NCBI RefSeq assembly: GCF_020023735.2
Contig: NZ_CP076444.2
Coordinates: 1,317,501-1,381,500 of the forward strand
Origin: Mycoavidus sp. HKI
GTDB lineage: Bacteria > Pseudomonadota > Gammaproteobacteria > Burkholderiales > Burkholderiaceae
Reading direction: 5' to 3'
DNA length: 64,000 bases
The notes under the pieces are model-generated. The model was not told the DNA's origin. It was given only the letters and a program-made list of their open reading frames with translations, and did not search any database. Made by a program: the position numbers and the translations under genes. Positions 20,473 through 37,708 of the stretch are shown in pieces. Positions within the stretch are counted from its first letter, which is position 1; the number at the start of each line of letters is the position of its first letter.

Positions 20473-21501
20473 CTAGGCATAGTCAGTCATGTTTGTCACT
20501 TTTTGAGATGCATGATTATATGCCTCAGCCTCGAGCTTATCGATTGCACATTGATTGAGCATGTGATCATCTCCTCCTGACGCTAATACTTTTCCTGATG
20601 CTGAAAAATTGACATTTAGCACAAATTCGCTATGCCCTGTAAACATAGCAATCTCTTTTCCAGTTGCTACATCCCATAGCTTCACCGCTTTATCATCACT
20701 TCCCGATGCCAATATTGCTTGTAATGGCGAAAAACATACGCTATTTACCTCATCACTATGCCCTTCAAGAGTAAAAATTTCTTTTCCAGTTACTATATTC
20801 CATAGTTTCACTGTCGTATCTAGACTTGCTGATGCCACTACTTTTTCTGATGGTGAAATATTTACGCTATTCACTCTACCTCTATGCCCTTCAAGCGTAA
20901 AAATCTCTTTTTTAGTTTCTATATTCCACAGTTTCACCGTTTTATCCCAGCTTGCCGATGCTAATACTTTTCCTGATGGCGAAAAATGTATACTGCTCAC
21001 GAAATCGCTATGTCCTTTAAGCGTACAAATCTCTTCTCTCGTTTTTACATTCCATAGCTTGATAGTTTTATCATCACTTCCCGACGCTAATATTTCTCCT
21101 GATGGCGAAAAATGCACGCTCATCACTCTGTCGCTATGGCCTGTTAGCGTACAAATCTCTGTTCCATTTTCTATGTTCCATAGTTTGACCGTACCATCAT
21201 CACCTCCCGATGCTAATATTTTTCCTGATGGCGAAAAATGCACACTATTCACGTAATTATTATGTCCGGTAAACGTGTTTACTAATTTTAAGGTCGCGGT
21301 TTCGTACAGCTTAACTTCGTTGCCCCTTGTGCTAACAGCTAGCCAGCAACCATTTGGAGAATAACTAGAGCCAGTAACATCGCTGCCTACTTTTATAATA
21401 GATGACCTTTCAGAGTTAATAGCAGCTGATAAAGAAGAAATTGGAAATTCTTGCTTTGCAACAGGGGATTGAATAGCCGAGCTGGAGATAGGATTTAACA
21501 T
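20473..21501 (-). CDS. WD40-repeat protein, seven blades
   Basis: The 342-residue protein has six clear WD40 units ending in KLWN/KLWD (pattern GHSDxVxSVHFSPSGxxLASGSDDKTIKLWN) and a degenerate first unit (GSSYSPNGCWLAVSTRGNEVKLYE), which makes a seven-bladed propeller. There is no signal peptide or catalytic domain. The opening MLNPISSS is also present on the frameshifted F-box-like/WD40 gene at 31577-33039, so they form one family, but this member lacks the F-box-like and pentapeptide parts. Such proteins usually hold complexes together; in a host-associated bacterium an effector role is possible. It stands alone on the reverse strand, beyond the phage lysis genes. The repeats are very similar to each other, which suggests recent internal duplication. 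Confidence 0.85.
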   Translation of the reverse strand: MLNPISSSAIQSPVAKQEFPISSLSAAINSERSSIIKVGSDVTGSSYSPNGCWLAVSTRGNEVKLYETATLKLVNTFTGHNNYVNSVHFSPSGKILASGGDDGTVKLWNIENGTEICTLTGHSDRVMSVHFSPSGEILASGSDDKTIKLWNVKTREEICTLKGHSDFVSSIHFSPSGKVLASASWDKTVKLWNIETKKEIFTLEGHRGRVNSVNISPSEKVVASASLDTTVKLWNIVTGKEIFTLEGHSDEVNSVCFSPLQAILASGSDDKAVKLWDVATGKEIAMFTGHSEFVLNVNFSASGKVLASGGDDHMLNQCAIDKLEAEAYNHASQKVTNMTDYA

Positions 21502-22891: not shown

Positions 22892-24019
22892 TTAGCTTAC
22901 CATCCACTGACTAAAGCGTTCGATAATGGCACTATGCTTATCTGCCCAATACAAGCCACTACTAGGTATCCCTTTTTTTAAATTGTCTGGATACGTTGAG
23001 AGTGACTTTACATATTTTGGATCAATTCGGTTTCTTTCTAAGACATCTTTTTCCAACGCACTAGGCTGTGTAGGGCTAATCCCATAGGGTATAAGCCGCG
23101 CCTGTCGCTCTGGGTCAGTGGCAAATCGGATAAATTGGCGGCAGGCATCCACATTAGGAGTCCCCTTCAAAATCGTCCAATTATCATATCCATAGATATG
23201 TTGGTCCCATGAAAATGCAACCGGTGCACCGGCATCAATAGCAGATAGTGTTGAAATGATAAAAGCAGGCATTAAATCTACTTCGCCAGTTTTTAATAGC
23301 TGTTCGGCGTGCGGCGTATTCTGCCACCAGACGGAGATATGCGGTTTGATTCTATCGAGGCTATCAAACGCACGCTCAAGCTTGCAAGGGTAGATTTCAG
23401 TTGGAAGCACACCATCTGCTAGCAAAGCTTCTTCAATGGTATCAAAAGGGATTTGACGTAGACCACGGCGGCCTGGGAAACGTTCCACATCCCAAAAATC
23501 TTTCCATGTCTTGGGGGTTGGGCGTCCTTTAAAAGCATCCGTTCGATACGCGAGCACAATAGAGTAAACGTTCATACCAACGCTATAGTCTGACAAAAGG
23601 TGCGGCATAATGGTTTTAACGACATCATCGTTCCCCAGTCTATGAGCTTCTAAATAACCCTGTTGCCCCAGTACTGGAATAGCCCTATTACCCAGGCACG
23701 CCATATTCCACTTGTACTCTCCTGTATCGACCATCGTTTTAATTTCTGCAACAGGCTCCACATTCGACGGAATGCCGATCACCTTAATACCCGTTTCTTT
23801 TCTAAAGGGTTCAAAGAGTATTTCTGTATACGCATAATGACTCTTGCCCCCCGAAGTACGAATCACAATTTGATCTGCGGATTCTGTAGTCATTTTCCTT
23901 GAAGGCGCGCTCTTCCGGGAGGTGATGATATAGGGCGCAGCAATCGCCGCTGCACCTGCGGCAATGAGGGCCTTAATGGCATTACGGCGACTATTGCGAG
24001 GTGGAGTTTTACTCTGCAT
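22892..24019 (-). CDS. Periplasmic solute-binding protein of an ABC transporter, PotD-like
   Basis: The 375-residue product begins with a twin-arginine-like signal (SRRNAIKALIAAGAAAIAAP), then a type-II periplasmic-binding fold of the polyamine/iron group (for example KTWKDFWDVERFPGRR, a motif typical of PotD-like proteins). It would capture a small solute, perhaps a polyamine, in the periplasm. No permease or ATPase gene is adjacent, so it either works with a distant transporter or is an orphan. Its start overlaps the end of the upstream LysR gene by 11 bases, which implies co-transcription and a regulatory link. Confidence 0.85.
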   Translation of the reverse strand: MQSKTPPRNSRRNAIKALIAAGAAAIAAPYIITSRKSAPSRKMTTESADQIVIRTSGGKSHYAYTEILFEPFRKETGIKVIGIPSNVEPVAEIKTMVDTGEYKWNMACLGNRAIPVLGQQGYLEAHRLGNDDVVKTIMPHLLSDYSVGMNVYSIVLAYRTDAFKGRPTPKTWKDFWDVERFPGRRGLRQIPFDTIEEALLADGVLPTEIYPCKLERAFDSLDRIKPHISVWWQNTPHAEQLLKTGEVDLMPAFIISTLSAIDAGAPVAFSWDQHIYGYDNWTILKGTPNVDACRQFIRFATDPERQARLIPYGISPTQPSALEKDVLERNRIDPKYVKSLSTYPDNLKKGIPSSGLYWADKHSAIIERFSQWMVS

Positions 24020-24968
24020 TTGATGCTCCGAATGGAATTGACGAATTACTATCCATCTCTGGCGAGAGAGTAAAAACGGATAATCTTGCTTTGAGCAATC
24101 TAAGTAATTGATTCATGGCTGGCAAAACGGGTTTGCCACGCCGGGTAATTAAAGCCATCTTGCTAGATTGAAAATCCGGGTGGTCCACTTCCAACGCGAT
24201 AAGCTTACCTGCCTTAATTTCCTCTCGTGCGGAAAAAGCGGACATAAACACGGCACCCGAGCCAGTAGACGCAAATGTTTTACGGACTGTGGTTGAATTA
24301 CTCACAAACGATGAAGGGCAAAGTTGGAGTTTTTCTGATCGCGCTATCGCTTGCACTGTTTCTAGTATCATCCCCGAAGCGGGAAGTGAAACTGGATAAC
24401 TTATCGCTTCCGCAAAAGTTACCTTCCGTTTACCAGCTAACGGATGATGCTTACTGACTAACAGATATAGCGGTAAAAGCACGCTTGCATAAAATTGAAT
24501 ATCCAGAGTTTCTGGGCAAACATCGGCTATCCCTATATCAACAGTATCGCTAAGTATGTGGTCGATTATCTTTGTGGTTTCAAATATTTCTTCAATCTGT
24601 AGATGCACGCCGGGATATCGAAGACGAAATTCATCAAATATATCCATAAAGACATGCACAAAGATAGCCGGTATAGCAAGACTCACACTACCTCGTCGCA
24701 TATCGCGCAACTCCTGTAAGCTAGCCTCAAAGGCTTTCAGCGCCTCGCAGTTCCTGCGATAATATTCAGACAATAACTCAGCTACATAAGTGGGCTTCAT
24801 TTCACGCGGGCAGCGATCGAATAATGGGTATCCTATCTCTTTTTCTAAAATCTGTATCTGGCGCGTAACAACGGATGCGTGTGCACTCTCACTCACCGCG
24901 GCTTTAGAAATTTGTCTATGGATAAATACGGCATTGAAGTAAAGCAATCGCTGCTGATTGATGATCAC
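24009..24968 (-). CDS. LysR-family transcriptional regulator, copy 2
   Basis: This 319-residue regulator is the paralogue of the one at 21568-22527. Helix-turn-helix (HRQISKAAVSESAHASVVTR) and effector domain are complete. Its last codons overlap the start of the solute-binding protein gene, so the intact unit is regulator then binding protein, both on the reverse strand. The two regulators differ mainly in the DNA-recognition helix and parts of the effector domain, so their targets may have diverged. Confidence 0.88.
   Translation of the reverse strand: MIINQQRLLYFNAVFIHRQISKAAVSESAHASVVTRQIQILEKEIGYPLFDRCPREMKPTYVAELLSEYYRRNCEALKAFEASLQELRDMRRGSVSLAIPAIFVHVFMDIFDEFRLRYPGVHLQIEEIFETTKIIDHILSDTVDIGIADVCPETLDIQFYASVLLPLYLLVSKHHPLAGKRKVTFAEAISYPVSLPASGMILETVQAIARSEKLQLCPSSFVSNSTTVRKTFASTGSGAVFMSAFSAREEIKAGKLIALEVDHPDFQSSKMALITRRGKPVLPAMNQLLRLLKARLSVFTLSPEMDSNSSIPFGASNAE
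24559..24681. repeat. 123-bp block identical between the two LysR genes, copy 2
   Basis: Identical to 22118-22240; see that entry for the likely origin by gene conversion. Confidence 0.75.
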
Positions 24969-25527
24969 TGTCCCCGCTCCTAAAGTAATTCCACCTTATT
25001 TTCAAAAAAATTATAGAGCTAATTTGAAAGTGCAGAGTTTGTTTATTTATTTTTTAAACATGCTCAATAAGCAATGGAAAGTATACTTTGAAGCTAGAAA
25101 CTTAATAACTGGTTAAATATACAGTGTCATAAAAGCAACGCTTCGATAGAATATGATTCATATTTTATATAAGAAATGGTTTATATATCCACATAACTCT
25201 TATTTCACCTTAGTTAAGAAGCCTCTACATAACTCTGTAGCGGTGCCCTGGCTCCTCTTCGATCTTTCCCTCAGCAACGCTGTCTCAATCCTGGTTCATT
25301 CGATTCTTTGCCCAATGAGCAAAGATAAACCTTGAGATTACTATTTTTTACATATTCTTTGCCGTCCATACTAGCGCTCAAATCATATATGAGGGATCTA
25401 CGGAGCTCTCAACGCAAGATGATTTACATGGAGTGCCTTTAGTGGATAACGCTCAAAAAATCACTTAGGGGCCTCCTTTTGGCAGCGAGTGTGAAATGAA
25501 TAACTCAAATTATGGAGATGTAGGCAA
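24969..25527. other. Intergenic region with a possible gene fragment
   Basis: The first 130 bases repeat the sequence upstream of the other LysR gene. Around 25380-25468 the + strand has an uninterrupted frame of about 30 codons ending in TAG (QIIYEGSTELSTQDDLHG then more) that looks coding, possibly the tail of a lost gene; I do not recognise it. I see nothing else. Confidence 0.4.
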
Positions 25528-26874
25528 ATGAATACTTCATCGGCTGATAGTGGTGTTTTGGTACATAAAAAGTGGCGATATTTTCGACGGCAACATAAAA
25601 CGAGTATGTTTCATCTCGCATTTATTTGTACCCGATTGCAAAAGCTGATGCACAGGCACATCGGCATTATTCCGTTACCGCTGTATTGCGTTATTCTTTT
25701 TTGCTTGAGCATTCTTTTAGCCTTTGGAAAAATCTCCAGTGATATCTCCATCATGGTGGCGATACTCACTACCTTAGGCTTTACATGTGCCGAATTGGGG
25801 GCGCGTATTCCGCTCCTACGTCTGATTGGTGGGCCGGTTATCGTTACGACCTTCCTTCCCTCCTGCTTGGTGTATTACAAACTTTTACCGGGTGAATTGG
25901 TTAGATCAATTAATGATTTTTGGCAGTCAACCAATATCCTGTATCTCTTTATCGCCTCTGTAGTGGTTGGCAGTATTCTTAGTATGGACCGCAGAACACT
26001 TGTTGCGGGGATGGCTAAAATTTTTGTCCCTCTTGCTGTCGGCTCAGTTGCCGCCGCTATCGTTGGCACGCTGACCGGGATGGCTTTTGGGTTAGGCGCT
26101 CACCATACTTTTTTCTATCTTGTCGTTCCCGTTATGGCGGGGGGTATTGGAGAAGGGGCAATTCCTCTCACGCTTGGCTATGCGGATATTCTTAACTTGC
26201 CACAAAAGCAGTTATTCGCCCAAGTTATACCCGCTATCGTGCTCGGGAATTTGATAGCGATTATCTGTGCCAGTTTGCTTCATCAATTCGGTAAGCGCCA
26301 TGCCAGCTATAGTGGCAAAGGCCGCTTATCTGCTGCTGACGAGGGTATATCCACAAACCCTAGCGACGCTTCTTCTGTCACGGTTGAACATCTCGCCGCC
26401 GCGGGCATGATCGCGATTTGTTTATATATGTTGGGAATACTTGTACATAAGCTGATTGGCTTGCCCGCACCCGTAGCGATGCTCTTTCTTGCGGTACTCG
26501 CCAAGCTAACTTACGCCATTTCACCCAAGCTGGAGGGCGGCGCTCGTATCGTTTATCGTTTTTTCTCGACGGTGGTTACTTATCCTTTGCTCTTTGCAAT
26601 CGGGATCACCATTACGCCGTGGAACGACTTACTAGCTGGCTTCACCTTAGCCAATATCGCCACCATTACGGCGACGGTTTGCACATTAACCACCGTGGGA
26701 TTTTTTGTAGGCAAATGGGTGGGTTTATATCCGATTGAAAGCGCAATCATTAATGCCTGCCACAGCGGTATGGGCGGTATTGGTGACGTAGCGATACTGT
26801 CTGCAGCCTACCGCCTAGAACTGATGCCATTTGCACAGATAGCAACTCGCCTAGGGGGAGCACTGACTATTACT

Positions 26875-28289
26875 CATGTCCTTACACACAACTATAAACA
26901 GCCAAGTACAATAAACCTTTAAAAGAAAGAGATGACAGGCAGAGATGAGCTGGGCAGCGAAAGAATTTAAGACAGTAGATTTAGGTGACAAGCGGTTAAA
27001 CAAGAGGCTGATGTTGCTTGCAGAGCGTCTTGGGGAAAAGCCGACGGCGAGTCTGCCTGGGGCATGTAAAGGGTGGGCGGAAACCCAGGGGGCGTATCGA
27101 TTTTTATCTCAAGAGGATATAGGTTGGGAGTCTATTTTAGAGCCGCACTGGTCCTGTTCGCGTGCGCGCTTACAAGAGCAGCGTACCGTTTTGTGCATCC
27201 AAGACACCACGGAACTGAACTTCAACGGACAATCGATAGAAGGCTTGGGTCCCCTGTGTTACGAAGCGCAACGAGGTATGTACCTGCACCCGACGTATGC
27301 GGTATCGTTGGAGCGTGAACCGTTAGGCGTATTAGATGCGTGGATGTGGGCACGTGCATCCAAAGAAGACGTAGAGAATCGGTCTGGGATCAAGGAAAGT
27401 ATACGCTGGATCGAAGGGTATAGCCGACTGGCAGAACTCTCAGCCGAGTTACCCCGAGACACGTTTGGTGTATATGGCAGACCGTGAATCCGACATGCTA
27501 GAACTGATATGCAAAGCCTCCGAACTGGGGAATCCGGTGGATTGGTTAATTCGCTCGTGTCACAACCGGGTGCTACCAGATGGTGCTCGCCTGTGGGAGG
27601 CAGTCGGTGCGCAGGCAGCGGTAGGCGAATTGCATTTTATGATGCCCTCACGGCATGGCCAAAAGGCTCGAGCGGTACGTCAGCAAGTCAGAATGAAACG
27701 CGTTGTCCTTGATGATAGAAAGGGCTCCCCGTTAGAAGTGACCTGCGTAATAGCCCAAGAAGTGGAGGTACCGTCTGGCTGTAAGCCTGTGGAGTGGCGC
27801 TTGCTCACTAATCGCGTGGTACTTGATTTCGACGCAGCAGTGGAGTTGATTGACTGGTATCGGGCTCGCTGGGAGATTGAGATGTTCTTCCACGTTCTCA
27901 AAAACGGCTGTCGCGTCGAGGCGCTGCAACTAGGGGCTATCGAAAAGTTAGAGAGGGCGCTGGCGGTCTATATGGTGGTGGCTTGGCGAATCGCTCGCTT
28001 GATGAGACTAGGCCGTACTTGCCCTGATCTGGAAGCAGAACTGCTGTTTGAGCCAGAGGAATGGCAAGCCGCGTATCTTCTCATGAAAAAACCTGTGCCA
28101 AAAAAGACGCCTCGACTCAATGAAGTAGTGCGGCTTATTGCGATGTTGGGTGGATTCTTAGGCCGAAAAGGGGATGGCGAGCCCGGCGTAAAAACCATCT
28201 GGCAAGGATTACAGCAGGTTACTGCCTTTGCTCAGGGTCTACGCTGGGCGCGCCAAAACCAGATATTTTGAGTTGTGTATAAGGATATG
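26875..28289 (+). mobile_element. IS4-family (Tn5/IS50-like) insertion sequence, copy B
   Basis: This is the second copy of the element at 528-1940, 1415 bp long, with the same inverted ends and a perfect 9-bp target duplication ACTATTACT at 26866-26874 and 28290-28298. It lies in the 3' end of the symporter gene. Copies A and B appear identical apart from one base lost in A (about 741) and one gained in B (about 27453). Confidence 0.95.
26945..28271 (+). pseudogene. Tn5-like transposase of IS copy B, frameshifted in the middle
   Basis: The N-terminal 170 residues are intact from ATG 26945, but at about 27451-27454 this copy has CCCC where copy A has CCC, and the frame shifts. The first frame ends at 27487; the rest continues from about 27465 to 28271. 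The shift falls just before the second catalytic Asp (MADRESD), so neither part can make the DDE site alone. Copy A is correct here and wrong elsewhere, so an intact 441-residue enzyme can be deduced from the pair. Confidence 0.9.
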
Positions 28290-28350
28290 ACTATTACTGC
28301 GGCAATCATTTTACTAGGCATCATTTCATAAAATTTTTATTTAAATGACG

Positions 28351-28761
28351 ATGAGACCTATTTTTCTTTCCATAATATTATGTATTTTTCCTTTTATGGG
28401 CTGTGGTGGAGATAATCCTATCCATGAAGAACAGGCGCTCATATCTGGAAAAAATAAAAATGCGAAAAAATCCTTAGCGGAGCTTGCAGATGAATTAAGC
28501 AAAGTGAGCGTAAAAGATTATGGCCGTGCTGCGCATGATAGCGCAGTAGACTTAGCAGAGATCGCACGTAACTTAGAAAAAATTATGCCAGAGCCAATTG
28601 GGGGAATCGCAAGTAGAACCTTATTGCTGGTGGAGCGTTTAATAATATTAATCAATTCTTATCCAAATTTAAAAAATAATAGTTATATTTTAAATGACAT
28701 TTCAAGAGAGACGGAAGAATTGAAAGAAGAAATGAGTGAGAGTATAGATGAAAGTCTATAA
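28351..28761 (+). CDS. Small lipoprotein with an RPLG-type motif, member 1
   Basis: I chose ATG 28351 (MRPIFLSIILCIFPFMGC) because it aligns with the start of the related gene at 30056, including the bases before it; an ATG six bases upstream is possible. The 136-residue protein has a short hydrophobic signal with a probable lipidated Cys at residue 18. Near residue 75 is the motif EKIMPEPIGGIASRTLLLVERL, shared in form with the proteins at 29210 and 30056; after it the chain is helical and acidic. No known family comes to mind. The gene begins 19 bases after the original stop of the symporter gene. Confidence 0.6.
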   Translation: MRPIFLSIILCIFPFMGCGGDNPIHEEQALISGKNKNAKKSLAELADELSKVSVKDYGRAAHDSAVDLAEIARNLEKIMPEPIGGIASRTLLLVERLIILINSYPNLKNNSYILNDISRETEELKEEMSESIDESL

Positions 28762-29209
28762 AATTAGAAAATAGATTAAATTAAACTTTTTAAGTTATTA
28801 ATGAAATCGAGAAGATCTCTATAAAATTAAAATATATTTTACGATACTCTGACTACAAAGGCTTGTATTGCTCAAAGTCTATTAAAATCTCGCTTTTCTA
28901 TTTGCTGCTATTTCTAAGCAATCTGCTTTTTCCAAAAAAAAACATTCCTCACTACGACTCGTAAAACATGGGTAAAAGCAAAGTTTACGTAGCCCATTGT
29001 CAACACCGTTCCTCTATCAATTTTTAAATTTCTTGATTTTGCTCTCTTCATCGACTAGCTTACATTAGCAAGCATCTCGTGAATAATAATTATCTTATAT
29101 TGTTTATAAACCATCTTAACCAGTATAAACAATTAAAATCCGCGAGCCGCTATCCGTTAGGAAATTTAAATTGGGGATTTGTTTGTTTTTATAGTCCAAG
29201 GAGAAAGTA
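28762..29209. other. Intergenic region of the RPLG cluster
   Basis: These 448 AT-rich bases hold no gene that I can support. An AAGGAG ribosome site at about 29198-29203 serves the next gene. Confidence 0.5.
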
Positions 29210-29995
29210 ATGGGTGCTGTAGAAAGTGTTCTTCGTGAAGTAGAGAAAACGACGATAAGACCATTAGGACAAGTCGCGCAGGGTGTCGAGAGAGTGACGA
29301 TAAGACCCTTAGGACAGGTCGCGCGGGGTGTCGAGAAAGTGACGATAAGACCTGTAGGAGAAATTGCCCGTGAACTGGAGAAAGTGACAATAAGACCTCT
29401 AGGGGGGATTGCACGCGGCGTAGAGACAGTGACGATAAGACCTTTAGGGGCAATTGCGCATGAATTGGAAAAAGCGCTAGCCAGACCTTTGGGGAGCATT
29501 GCAAGTAAAACTGTATTGCTATTGGAACGCCTAATAGATGCAGTTGAGCAAGAATCGTCTATGGAGACGAACACAGACATGCACGCCAGGCGAGAAAATT
29601 TAAACAGAATGGCAGAAGACGTGGTGCAAGTAGAGAGAGAGATAAACGAGGCAGTATTAGCAACGCCAGCGACTGACGAAGATCGTTTAAGGGTTTTCGG
29701 TGAATGTAGCAGAGTAAATAGCGAGATTGGGCATAACATCGGGCGACTGCAAAATAACGTAGCGCTTGCTCAAACTAACGCAGAACTTTTTCAAGTTAAC
29801 TCGGGACTTGTTCAAACTAACGAAGAACTTGCATCTGAAAATCACTCTCTTAGAGACCAGTTAAATTTTATGCAAGCTAGACTTCGGGAGGCTTTAGTAG
29901 ACGAAAATAATATTGGTCAGACAGACGTTATTTATGAGGATGAGGATGAGAGTGAGGATGAGGATGATTTAGCTCCTCCGGAATATTTTCCATAA
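29210..29995 (+). CDS. Unrecognised protein with six 15-residue RPLG repeats, coiled coil and acidic tail
   Basis: The 261-residue product starts at ATG 29210 behind AAGGAG. Residues 11-100 are six tandem 15-residue units with consensus VEKVTIRPLGxIARG; the last unit continues into ARPLGSIASKTVLLLERLI, the motif shared with the flanking lipoproteins. A helical region follows (about 105-165), then a coiled coil built from near-repeats (AQTNAELFQVNSGLVQTNEE) at about 180-225, an acidic stretch (DEDESEDEDD), and the end APPEYFP, which contains a PPxY sequence. There is no signal peptide. Function unknown. The unit resembles amphipathic repeats that bind membranes or form solenoids, which is only a guess. 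Confidence 0.7.
   Translation: MGAVESVLREVEKTTIRPLGQVAQGVERVTIRPLGQVARGVEKVTIRPVGEIARELEKVTIRPLGGIARGVETVTIRPLGAIAHELEKALARPLGSIASKTVLLLERLIDAVEQESSMETNTDMHARRENLNRMAEDVVQVEREINEAVLATPATDEDRLRVFGECSRVNSEIGHNIGRLQNNVALAQTNAELFQVNSGLVQTNEELASENHSLRDQLNFMQARLREALVDENNIGQTDVIYEDEDESEDEDDLAPPEYFP
29240..29509 (+). repeat. Six tandem 45-bp coding repeats
   Basis: The repeats encode the 15-residue RPLG units of the protein at 29210. Units 1-5 share a stretch of the form acgataagacc[ct]ttagg; unit 6 is more divergent. The repeat number may vary between strains. Confidence 0.85.
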
Positions 29996-30055
29996 ATCAA
30001 TTTATTTTTTATAATAAAGTGATTTTTTAATGAATAAATTTCAATTTAAATAACA

Positions 30056-30747
30056 ATGCGTCTTATTTTAATTTCAATAATATTATTTACTTCTCCTTTT
30101 GTAGGTTGTGGGAGTGATACTCATGAGAGTGATAACTCTAATTTTACAAAGCAGCCGCTTGCGATTGAAATAAATAAAGGATCGGTAAAATCTTTGGAAG
30201 ATATTAGAAATGACCTAGCTAAAGTAAAAGCTGATTGTTTGGATATGGTATGCGATGGGACAGATTCTTTAGGAAATATTGCGCTTGATTTTGAAAAATC
30301 ACTTATAAAACCGCTTGGGGAATTTGCAAGTAGATCTGTTCTTCTGGATAAAGCTTTAATAATGGTCCTTAAGCGTGGTTTTGATATAAAAGACGATGAA
30401 AATATTGTAGATAAAATATTTGATGATGCGCACCAACTAAAAATAGAAATAAATCAAGAAATATCGGTAACACCAGAGATTGAGGTAAATATTATAAATT
30501 TCCTAAATAAACTAAAAATAAATGTTGATGAGATTGTAAACAACGCAGAAAACCTTTATAAAACAAAAATAGATTCTATTAAAAACCGACATATTCTTCT
30601 TGAAAATAATGCTTACCTTACTCAGCGTAATTTTCAAATCTGTAAAGATAACGTCAATCTTGTGCGCGAGCAAAAAAACTTAGAGAAGATTTAGCTTTAG
30701 CAAAAGCTCAGAAACTAATGCAAGAACTTATAGATTCATTAAGTTAA
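30056..30747 (+). CDS. Small lipoprotein with an RPLG-type motif, member 2 (frame broken near the 3' end)
   Basis: The protein begins MRLILISIILFTSPFVGC, closely like the 28351 gene, with a probable lipidated Cys at residue 18. The shared motif appears as EKSLIKPLGEFASRSVLLDKAL. A long helical, coiled-coil part follows. In the present frame the protein ends at 30694 (212 residues). In another frame the coding continues as LREDLALAKAQKLMQELIDS to a stop at 30747, and restoring one A to the seven-A run at 30672-30678 joins the two. So the gene either lost a base or relies on slippage at the A run. It is the third gene of the cluster. Confidence 0.6.
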
Positions 30748-31576: not shown

Positions 31577-33039
31577 TTACGCTAATCCAGCTCCTCTCTG
31601 TTTTGACAGCCTTTGATTCACTTCGCTTAACCCTTCCACTCCTTCCATTAACGCTCCTCTCACCGTCAGAAAACTATGACCCGTACTCCAGCTCAAATGC
31701 GCCTTATAGTCCACTCCCTCTTTTTTTAATTCCCATTGCCGCACTGAATTATCAAAACCACCTATTCCTAAATAGTCTACTCCGCTGATCTCTTTCCAGG
31801 AGAGGCTTGCCACTGAACCACTATCCTCAATGAGGATCCGGCACTCACCCGTTTGGACATCCCATAGACGCACCGTATTGTCCCAACTCCCCGACGCTAG
31901 CTGCGAGCCACTGGGCGAATACACTACGCTATAAATTTCACCAGTATGGCCTTCTAAGGTCTGGACTGACCTGCCAATCGCCGCGCCCCACAAGCGAACT
32001 GTCTTGTCATTACTCCCAGACGCTAGCTGCGTGCCACTGGGCGAATACACTACGCTATTAACACCAGCAGTATGACCTTCTAAGGTCTGGACTGACTTGC
32101 CACTCGCCCCGTCCCATAATCGAATCGTTTTGTCACTACTCCCAGACGCTAGCTGCGAGCCACTTGGCGAATACACTACGCTAAAAACACTTCCAGTATG
32201 GCCTTCTAAGGTCTGGATTTTCTCCCAATTCAAGGTCGTATACACACTGATCTTACCGTTGTAGAGACCTACCGCATACCTTTTACCATCCGGTGAATAC
32301 GCGCACGACCATACTGAGCTCTCTTCTTCGAAATACGACCATTCGCCAAACTGCACTCCAGCCATCTGCGCTCCACTTAAATTCGCGTCTCGCAGCCAGC
32401 TCATACAAAATTTCACTCCCCTTAAATCCGCTCCTTGAAATTGCGTATGGTCAAACACCCCATAGCTTAAATCTGCCCCAGGCACGCGTATACCGCTGAA
32501 ATCTTTGTTATTCAATTGCACGCCAGCTTTCACTAATAATGCCAACGCGTTAGCTGCTATAGGCTGCACCTCTTCTGTTTTCGACCTTTCCACCCAGTCT
32601 AATAATTTCTGTTTTAGCTGTGCATCTTGTTGGACTCTTTCTTGTAAAAATCTAAATATCTCTGCATCGTTAACAAGACATACCAACTCAAAAGCGCTAA
32701 TTTCTCTACAACCTGATCGAATTGCCCTGAGTCTGATAACTTTTCTAATTGGCTCAATGCAAATTTCTTTAACCCTTCATCTGAGCTTATGAGAGATCCT
32801 AGATATTGGGATTGAATCCTTTCTTTGATTAAGTGCAACTTTAAAATAGGCGAATCTATAGGTTCATCATTGCGAGTCACTTTGGTCAATGCTTTAAACA
32901 AAGCTTGCTGGCTCGAAAAATCCAGAAACTTTTCTATTTCTTCCCTGATTTCCAGGGGAAGCGAAAGAAAACCTGATTCTGTGGATTTTTGTGTTGCTAG
33001 ATAATGCAGATTGGTAGAGCTCGAAATAGGGTTCAGCAT
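31577..33039 (-). pseudogene. F-box-like / pentapeptide / WD40 protein, broken by a 1-base deletion
   Basis: The N-terminal part (33039 down to about 32690) begins MLNPISSS and contains LPLEIREEIEKFLDFSSQQ, an F-box-like stretch. The frame is lost at about 32689, where the paralogue at 36032 has one more base (its codons read CTT TTG GAA); restoring it joins this part to the frame that runs to 31577. The second part has pentapeptide-like units (GADLSYGVFDHTQFQGADL) and about five WD40 blades. A restored protein would have about 487 residues. The WD40 blades are nearly identical to each other. The end KQRGA matches the end of the intact paralogue. Confidence 0.8.
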
Positions 33040-36031: not shown

Positions 36032-37708
36032 CTATCTTGCGCCTCGCTGTCTGAGTAAGGCGGCGTTTTCAGAGCTTAAACCGCAGGCATTTTCGATCAA
36101 TGCATCTTCTGCAGTTAGCGTACCTTCCTCCAGTTCTCTCCCACTCACAATATACGCACTGCGCCTAATATGCCACAGCCCCACCGTCTTATCATCACTT
36201 GCAGATGCTAGCCACTGGCTATCGCTTGAGAATGCGATGCTATTCACCCGAGATGTATGCCCAGTATACGTGCATGCAAGAGATCGACTGCCCGAGACAT
36301 ACCACAGCTTCACTGTATTAATTAAATCTGCAGATGCTAGCCACTGACCATCGTTTGAGAACGCGACACTACTCACACGCTCATTATGTCCAGTATATGT
36401 GTGCACAAGAGATAGATTATCCGAGACATGCCACAGATTCACTCCCTCAGCACTTCCAAACGCCACATATTGGCCATCGACTGAAAACGCGGGATCTCCC
36501 ACCCAATCCTCAGTATATCTGTGCACGGGAGATCCATCGCCAGAGACATGCCACAGCAGTGCCGTCCGAGTATCACTAGCAGCTAACCATTGGCCATCGC
36601 TTGAGAACACGACACTATGCAGCCCCAAATGACCGTAATAGCCAGTATAGGCGCGCGCAAGAGATCGGTCACCCGAGACATGCCACAGTTGCACACTATT
36701 ATCATAATTTACAACAGCTAAATATTGGCCATCGACTGAAAACGCGACACTCCCGAATCCACTATACGTGTGTGCGAGGGATCGATCGCCCAAGACATGC
36801 CACAGATTACCATCACCAGCAGCTAGCCACTGACCATCTCTTGAGAACGCAATACTACTATCCGAATACCTATGGCTAGTATACGTATGGACTTTCTGTA
36901 AGCTCTCTGTTTCATAGAGATAGATATATTGACTCTCCTTCACAGCCAACCAGTGCCCATCCAGTGAATAACAACAAGCCTTCACTTCATTTTCCATCTG
37001 TAGTGCGGGACTTTCAACCAACTCTAATCCCTGGAGATCGGCCCCCTCTAAATTGACTCTTCTTAGCTGAGCATGGTACCAATTTACATTTCTTAAATCC
37101 GCACCTTGAAATTGCGTATCATCAAACACCCCATGACTTAAATCTGCGCCGGGCACGCGTATTCCCCTGAAATCTCTATTCTTCAATTGCACGCCGGCTT
37201 TCACCAATAGCATCAGCGCATTAGCTGCCACAGTTTGTACTTCTTCTGTCTTAGAGCGCTCCACCCAACTCAATAGCTTTTGTTCTATTTCAGAATCGAT
37301 TTCGTCGTATATATAGCCAAATAGCCCTAGGTCATTGACAAACCATAACAGTTCCAAAAGTGCAGATTTCTCTACCGCCTGATCGAGTTGATGCAAGACA
37401 CATAACCTTGCCACTTCATTCCACGCAAAATCTTCCAAGCTCTTATCTGAGTGGATCAAAGCTTCTTGATATTTGGCTTGAATCCTATCTTTGATTAGGT
37501 GTAGCTTCAGAACGGGCGAATCTATGGGTTCGCTATTGCGAGTCACCGTAGTGAGCGCTTTAAACAAATCCTGCTGGCTTGAAAAATCCAGCAGATTTTC
37601 TATTGCTTCTCGAATTTCTAGGGTTAGCAGGAGAAACGATGGTTTTACGGTCTTTTGTGCCGCCGGATAATGCGTAATGGCAGAATTCGAGATGGAAGTG
37701 AGCATCAA
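36032..37708 (-). CDS. F-box-like / pentapeptide / WD40 protein, intact
   Basis: The 558-residue protein has three parts. Residues about 20-60 (LTLEIREAIENLLDFSSQQ, then LFKALTTVTRN) resemble an F-box, the eukaryotic motif that binds Skp1. A helical linker follows, then pentapeptide-like units at about 190-235 (GADLSHGVFDDTQFQGADL, NLEGADLQGLEL). The remainder has seven or eight WD40 blades with the pattern VAFSxDGQWLAxxD...LWHVSGDRSLAxxYTGH. It ends ENAALLRQRGAR. F-box plus WD40 is the architecture of eukaryotic ubiquitin-ligase receptors, so a role as effector in a host cell is a reasonable hypothesis, unproven. Paralogues: 31577-33039 (broken) and a relic at 55462. Confidence 0.75.
   Translation of the reverse strand: MMLTSISNSAITHYPAAQKTVKPSFLLLTLEIREAIENLLDFSSQQDLFKALTTVTRNSEPIDSPVLKLHLIKDRIQAKYQEALIHSDKSLEDFAWNEVARLCVLHQLDQAVEKSALLELLWFVNDLGLFGYIYDEIDSEIEQKLLSWVERSKTEEVQTVAANALMLLVKAGVQLKNRDFRGIRVPGADLSHGVFDDTQFQGADLRNVNWYHAQLRRVNLEGADLQGLELVESPALQMENEVKACCYSLDGHWLAVKESQYIYLYETESLQKVHTYTSHRYSDSSIAFSRDGQWLAAGDGNLWHVLGDRSLAHTYSGFGSVAFSVDGQYLAVVNYDNSVQLWHVSGDRSLARAYTGYYGHLGLHSVVFSSDGQWLAASDTRTALLWHVSGDGSPVHRYTEDWVGDPAFSVDGQYVAFGSAEGVNLWHVSDNLSLVHTYTGHNERVSSVAFSNDGQWLASADLINTVKLWYVSGSRSLACTYTGHTSRVNSIAFSSDSQWLASASDDKTVGLWHIRRSAYIVSGRELEEGTLTAEDALIENACGLSSENAALLRQRGAR

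Follow-up and report, generated by a model that had tools for sequence, protein, structure and literature searches.

Two adjacent genes in the 64,000-nucleotide stretch of Mycoavidus DNA analysed here (the window), encoding a leaderless repeat protein (gene 2) and a lipoprotein-type partner (gene 3), may be one copy of a symbiosis module that is specific to Mycoavidus and has been duplicated repeatedly, in which a lipoprotein and a repeat protein would pair at the bacterium-fungus interface; we hold this reading tentatively, at less than an even chance. Mycoavidus is an endosymbiont of Mortierellaceae fungi, and the genome around the window is a single contig of 2,254,889 bases. An earlier note on this DNA had described three related genes. 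All three open frames are real and the motif EK..PLG.IASRT.LL..RLI is common to all of them, as it had claimed; the end that it gave, 30747, is the stop of another frame, and gene 3's own stop comes earlier. The features of the region are as follows.

25528..26922, forward strand: 2-hydroxycarboxylate (2HCT) transporter gene, apparently the ancestral neighbour of gene 1 (Pfam 2HCT, E 1.2e-132)
26945..28271, forward strand: Tn5-type transposase, broken into two frames, between the 2HCT transporter gene and gene 1 (Pfam Tnp_DNA_bind and Dimer_Tnp_Tn5)
28345..28761, forward strand: gene 1, 138 aa, short lipoprotein-type relative, apparently a stray copy outside the pair
29085..29102, forward strand: upstream element resembling AATAATTAGACTATATTR, 107 bp 5' of gene 2 (3 mismatches)
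29198..29204, forward strand: AAGGAGA, Shine-Dalgarno-like sequence of gene 2, as read in the DNA
29210..29995, forward strand: gene 2, 261 aa, leaderless repeat protein with the start MGAVESVL
29261..29530, forward strand: PLG units of gene 2, six of 15 residues each (45-nt repeats)
29444..29920, forward strand: predicted helical domain of gene 2, common to the family, with a long coiled-coil-like helix, residues 79–237 (AlphaFold2; hhalign to the gene 3 family)
30056..30694, forward strand: gene 3, 212 aa, lipoprotein-type partner carrying gene 2's domain
30672..30678, forward strand: poly-A tract just 5' of gene 3's early end

AGGAG was aligned 5' of all ten repeat genes compared. Sigma-70 sites were no commoner than in shuffles (10 versus 9.0), and terminator-like sites numbered 3 versus 1.7 in shuffles. 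WD40 proteins flank the region at 20473–21501, 31577–32686 and 36032–37708 (reverse strand), one of them with pentapeptide repeats. Further upstream, 22892–26922 compared with L080:3154–7528 reads as an apparent duplicated cassette of LysR regulator, solute-binding protein, 2HCT transporter and gene 1 (L080 by eye).

The P[L/V]G units of gene 2 begin at residues 18, 33, 48, 63, 78 and 93, always 15 apart, which bears out the six repeats previously reported, and the DNA repeats with a 45 nt period. Self-comparison of the first 108 residues at lag 15 gave 53 identities, a number to be set against at most 21 over lags 5–30 in 2000 shuffles. Beyond the repeats, the gene 2 family profile aligned over 175 columns with that of the gene 3 family, which includes gene 1 (hhalign probability 99.9, E 9.7e-32), and a genome search matched gene 1 to gene 3 (E 4.5e-15). 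Judged from these profiles, the domain common to genes 1–3 is homologous, and the proposed origin by duplication is upheld: there is one family, with lipoprotein-type and leaderless repeat forms. Two C-terminal traits reported for gene 2 fared less well. The acidic stretch is present in some long-form members and missing from others, while the PPEY end, found in gene 2, occurred in 0 of 23 other rows checked and is not conserved; PPEY as a WW-domain ligand was dropped on that count. Many long-form repeat proteins in alignment A1 finish FA after the acidic stretch, and the window's gene 2 finishes YFP.

The earlier note knew of no described family with this layout, and profile searches found none either. 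The window's three proteins reached no curated cut-off in Pfam or NCBIfam, the best PHROGs match (a collection with no cut-off of its own) had E 0.012, and the best PDB match by sequence, sought for the gene 2 family, had E 0.063. Ten rows of the gene 3 alignment gave nothing in Pfam at E 0.01. Pfam Ral matched 7 of the 17 A1 members weakly (best E 2e-4) and was read as spurious. Among the matches listed in a search of the Mycoavidus literature, mostly open-access, titles and abstract openings held no description of the PLG family. A protein search of 41 genomes (its own and 40 relatives) placed the family in three, and profile searching across 398 genomes from the taxonomic family returned the identical three, all within the genus; the named relatives (P0012, P0014, P0015, P0021, P0025) are all Mycoavidus in the database. 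Among ~5.8 billion proteins, 14 relatives of gene 2 were found and, with the gene 3 alignment, 11 including the window's own. An L077 variant drew four relatives from the same collection, three of them already among gene 2's 14. In a genome_contigs scan, from which records near the genome itself were possibly left out, none of 54 pattern matches encoded a relative, and phage records yielded none. Presence in other endosymbionts, which the earlier note had raised, is confined to Mycoavidus in both sets, with three genomes in all, the window's own included. Since these searches depend on shared words or patterns, distant relatives may be missed; as found so far, the PLG-domain family is seen only in the genus Mycoavidus.

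The AlphaFold2 model of gene 2 (mean pLDDT 70.9) has helices at residues 79–89, 94–117, 122–151 and 157–237; residues 1–76 are mostly below pLDDT 50, with the repeats at about 37–43. That of gene 3 (mean pLDDT 74.0) has helices at 47–55, 71–82, 87–107, 115–138 and 144–211. Foldseek found no match to the gene 2 model at E ≤0.001, and the VIA-align matches of both models were largely three-helix bundles or other helical chains. At 96 degrees per residue the gene 2 array had a hydrophobic moment of 0.448, against 0.015 at 100; 500 shuffles reached at most 0.309, though shuffling also removes the repeat itself. Single units were modestly amphipathic (shuffle fractions 0.01–0.19), and one of seven exceeded the lipid-binding score of 0.68. 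On this modelling, the array may be a membrane-binding ribbon, a rod or a flexible interaction array. A 15/4 periodicity such as that of the array also fits right-handed coiled coils and, together with the long predicted helices and the lack of a signal peptide in gene 2, would suit scaffold or granule proteins within the bacterium or its periplasm, whether phasin-like or rods of 15-residue coiled-coil repeats. We consider this quite unlikely, as each unit holds a proline and restriction to one genus would be unusual for a housekeeping role. A phasin role in particular is disfavoured, with no match to PhaC_N (PHA synthase) in any of the three genomes; the Pfam families listed for the window's three proteins and for the 17 members of A1 likewise include no phasin.

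The module reading draws on the recurrence of genes 2 and 3 as a pair. Genes with RPxG repeats were read at ten loci (n = 10: the window, L072, L073, L075, L074, L076, L078, L079 and two in L077), and at eight a relative lies directly downstream, lipoprotein-type in four and leaderless in four. Behind the long-form genes (six or seven units) the relative is lipoprotein-type, at 60 (window), 61 (L072), 30 (L073) and 33 bp (L075); behind the short-form genes (three units) it is leaderless, at 201 (L074), 68 (L076), 189 (L078) and 226 bp (L079). Pairs are present in all three genomes. At both L077 loci the repeat gene starts MGFLKG and no relative follows; these genes (L077:6308-7129 and L077:10040-10900, genome G001) are near-identical and carry RPAGE repeats, and a PLG partner was seen downstream of neither. 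L103 has an MGxVES start, a different body and no partner downstream, and the L082 copy is a fragment with a 62-residue open frame.

A single three-gene system, as had been proposed, finds no support, in that the recurring unit is genes 2 and 3 only and gene 1 stands apart. Gene 1 lies 448 bp upstream of gene 2, and its L080 copy sits 13 bp behind a transporter-like frame (similarity by eye) with no repeat gene within the 8 kb read. In the window, the 2HCT transporter gene lies upstream of gene 1, separated by the broken Tn5-type transposase, whose start also occurs at L103, there in a single frame at least 335 residues long. Gene 1 is apparently a short copy that changes quickly and accompanies the 2-hydroxycarboxylate transporter, outside the pair.

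Approximate dN/dS, for which synonymous distances were often near saturation, was 0.26–0.32 for gene 2 against three long-form paralogues and 0.41–0.47 for gene 3 against three relatives. Over six comparisons per class it was 0.18–0.33 for long repeat genes, 0.26–0.41 for short ones and 0.27–0.47 for the lipoproteins, and it reached 0.85 for gene 1 against its L080 copy. The values for genes 2 and 3 support their coding status. Gene 3 itself ends early: its relatives P0016 (93% identical), P0019 and P0020 have 230 aa, against 212 in P0018 and in the window's protein, and the window's frame stops, at 30694, soon after the poly-A tract. Intact copies exist among relatives, and the early end may reflect decay, assembly error or slippage. 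That the genes are decaying duplicates with little present function is an account we find very doubtful. The near-neutral gene 1, an internal stop in L081 (a third gene 1 copy), the 62-residue frame of L082 and the early end of gene 3 are consistent with it, but the pair genes keep dN/dS well below 1 despite high synonymous divergence, and pairs are retained in all three genomes.

At the N-terminus of the repeat proteins, M1, G2, V4, E5, S6, V7 and L8 are the same in all 17 rows of A1; L078, outside A1, begins MGVVESTL. The MGxVES codon pattern occurs at 11 places in the three genomes (reversed control, 4): nine are open MGxVES genes, one is the L082 fragment and one is a further place in G001. 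With at most two mismatches, AATAATTAGACTATATTR occurs four times in the three genomes and not at all in the reversed control: 93, 95 and 124 bp 5' of the MGxVES gene at L074, L078 and L103 respectively, and once more at L074, 290 bp 5' of the lipoprotein gene. The window has a single match with 3 mismatches (0.09 expected; at least one match in 8 of 100 shuffles). Mismatches elsewhere numbered 3 at L076, 4 at L079, 5 at L073 (at 115 bp), 5 at L075 in a different place, and 7 at L072, at both L077 genes and at each of genes 1 and 3; L072 and L075 are without a clear element. As background, 350-base stretches were drawn at random from the loci retrieved, and 22 of 3000 reached ≤3 mismatches, true sites counted. 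Because the pattern was derived from these upstream regions, the information lies in how rare it is elsewhere. L103:1703-2491 combines an MGAVES start and the upstream element with another body.

The N-myristoylation consensus has G at position 2 and S at position 6. Gene 2 could accordingly be imagined as a lone effector inside the fungus, its G2/S6 start serving as a eukaryotic N-myristoylation signal and its repeats adding membrane grip, with gene 3 an evolutionary by-product; this we judge unlikely. MGxVES is retained in all nine intact MGxVES genes although the rest of L103 differs, the first 16 codons show pN 0.027–0.122 versus pS 0.09–0.455 (12 comparisons), and NEL-type genes adjoin three MGxVES genes, all of which would agree with it. 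Yet the consensus is short and often met by chance, the L077 variants begin MGFLKG, and the partner gene is retained at eight loci.

Genes 1 and 3 had been called lipoproteins. Their starts are leader-like, with a basic start, a hydrophobic core, FMGC or FVGC and then G after the cysteine, and a relaxed lipobox is present; the strict pattern (PS51257-like) fails in both, owing to a proline at –4, as it does in the L080 copy of gene 1. The remaining 10 of 13 leaders checked match it. A lipoprotein-type gene also precedes the repeat gene at L074, L076 and L079. This outer position is not one gene throughout, since L079 has an LRR-NEL gene there and the leader frame of L076 resembles that gene's start. 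In G001, L104:1104-3143 encodes a 679-residue lipoprotein-led protein in which internal repeats were noted by eye and for which Pfam gave nothing at E 0.1.

NEL-domain genes occur once in each of the three genomes, each adjoining an MGxVES gene.

L103:2517-3911, reverse strand: NEL-type E3 ligase gene, convergent with the MGxVES gene, 25 bp apart
L079:4866-6368, forward strand: NEL-type E3 ligase gene, 201 bp upstream of the MGxVES gene
L076:9407-10798, reverse strand: NEL-type E3 ligase gene, upstream of the MGxVES gene on the same strand

At L079 and L103 a single frame holds a lipoprotein-type leader together with LRR matches, which stay below cut-off, and NEL, which exceeds it; at L076 leader and NEL are split over two adjacent frames. 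All four short-form pairs precede frames of 1995–2467 residues, three of these lengths being lower bounds because the frame runs off the sequence retrieved, and scans of the first 1000 residues of two matched TPS (L074, E 6e-16) and Fil_haemagg (L078, E 1.2e-9). Such NEL or haemagglutinin-type neighbours were seen at short-form or L103 loci and at none of the long-form loci, the window included. An export-gate family gene is present in all three genomes; it can be flagellar, because the family also matches the E. coli and B. subtilis controls. In a comparison of M. cysteinexigens strains, one strain is given type II, III and IV secretion genes and another partial systems (PMC5877345).

In the module that we tentatively favour, gene 3 would be tethered to the outer membrane, and gene 2 would leave the bacterial cell by a putative export route. 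The two would pair via their helical domains, and the PLG array, a string of amphipathic 15-residue units, would thereby be presented to fungal membranes or proteins, or else delivered to them. Gene 1 would be a stray short copy on a transporter operon, which the module does not need. The pair account is the most economical because the anchored and leaderless forms have in common a domain with a long, potentially pairing helix, stay adjacent, and have host-interaction-type genes nearby at other loci. We counted for it the common domain, the pair order (4/4 long-form and, with a leaderless partner, 4/4 short-form), the low dN/dS, the long helices in both models, the invariant MGxVES start, the upstream element, the NEL, TPS and haemagglutinin neighbours, the export-gate gene and the 96-degree periodicity. 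Against it we counted the low pLDDT of the repeats, the modest amphipathicity of single units, the partnerless L077 variants and L103, the window's lack of NEL or haemagglutinin neighbours, the lack of a clear element at L072 and L075, the early end of gene 3 and the possibly flagellar export gate. A broader reading, which we regard as very unlikely, would make these genes an unrecognised symbiosis regulon marked by the MGxVES tag and the upstream element, with the helical domain attached to a lipid anchor in gene 3 or, in gene 2, to amphipathic repeats plus a candidate myristoyl site; the pair would tether the bacterial surface to the fungal membrane, and the leader type would put the LRR-NEL ubiquitin ligase on the bacterial surface.

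In the endofungal Mycetohabitans, a 2025 review describes a type III system as essential for hyphal entry, the corresponding effectors as elusive, and a TAL-like effector as named for later survival (PMC12306442). The PLG family would offer, in a second endofungal genus, a short list of candidate host-interface proteins that is searchable by N-terminal tag and upstream element. Lipoprotein-type leaders on NEL ligases, if real, would be an unusual placement for such effectors, and a search for NEL domains with lipoproteins in endosymbionts found no paper.

Among known systems, LRR-NEL (IpaH/SspH-type) E3 ligases come close as neighbours: the Mycoavidus NEL genes lie beside MGxVES genes and have a lipoprotein-type leader resembling those of genes 1 and 3; the PLG domain, by contrast, has no sequence relation to NEL or LRR families. 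Candidates for comparison also include the BAG domain, an Hsp70-binding three-helix bundle, and other three-helix bundles. Exchangeable apolipoproteins are proline-punctuated amphipathic repeat proteins, and the amphipathic units of gene 2, with one proline each and in phase along the array, resemble them; gene 2 differs in its 15-residue units and the absence of a sequence match, and its lipid binding is putative. Trimeric autotransporter stalks are 15/4 right-handed coiled coils and have in common with gene 2 the 15-residue period at 96 degrees, whereas gene 2 has a proline and a glycine in each unit, no anchor and no signal peptide.
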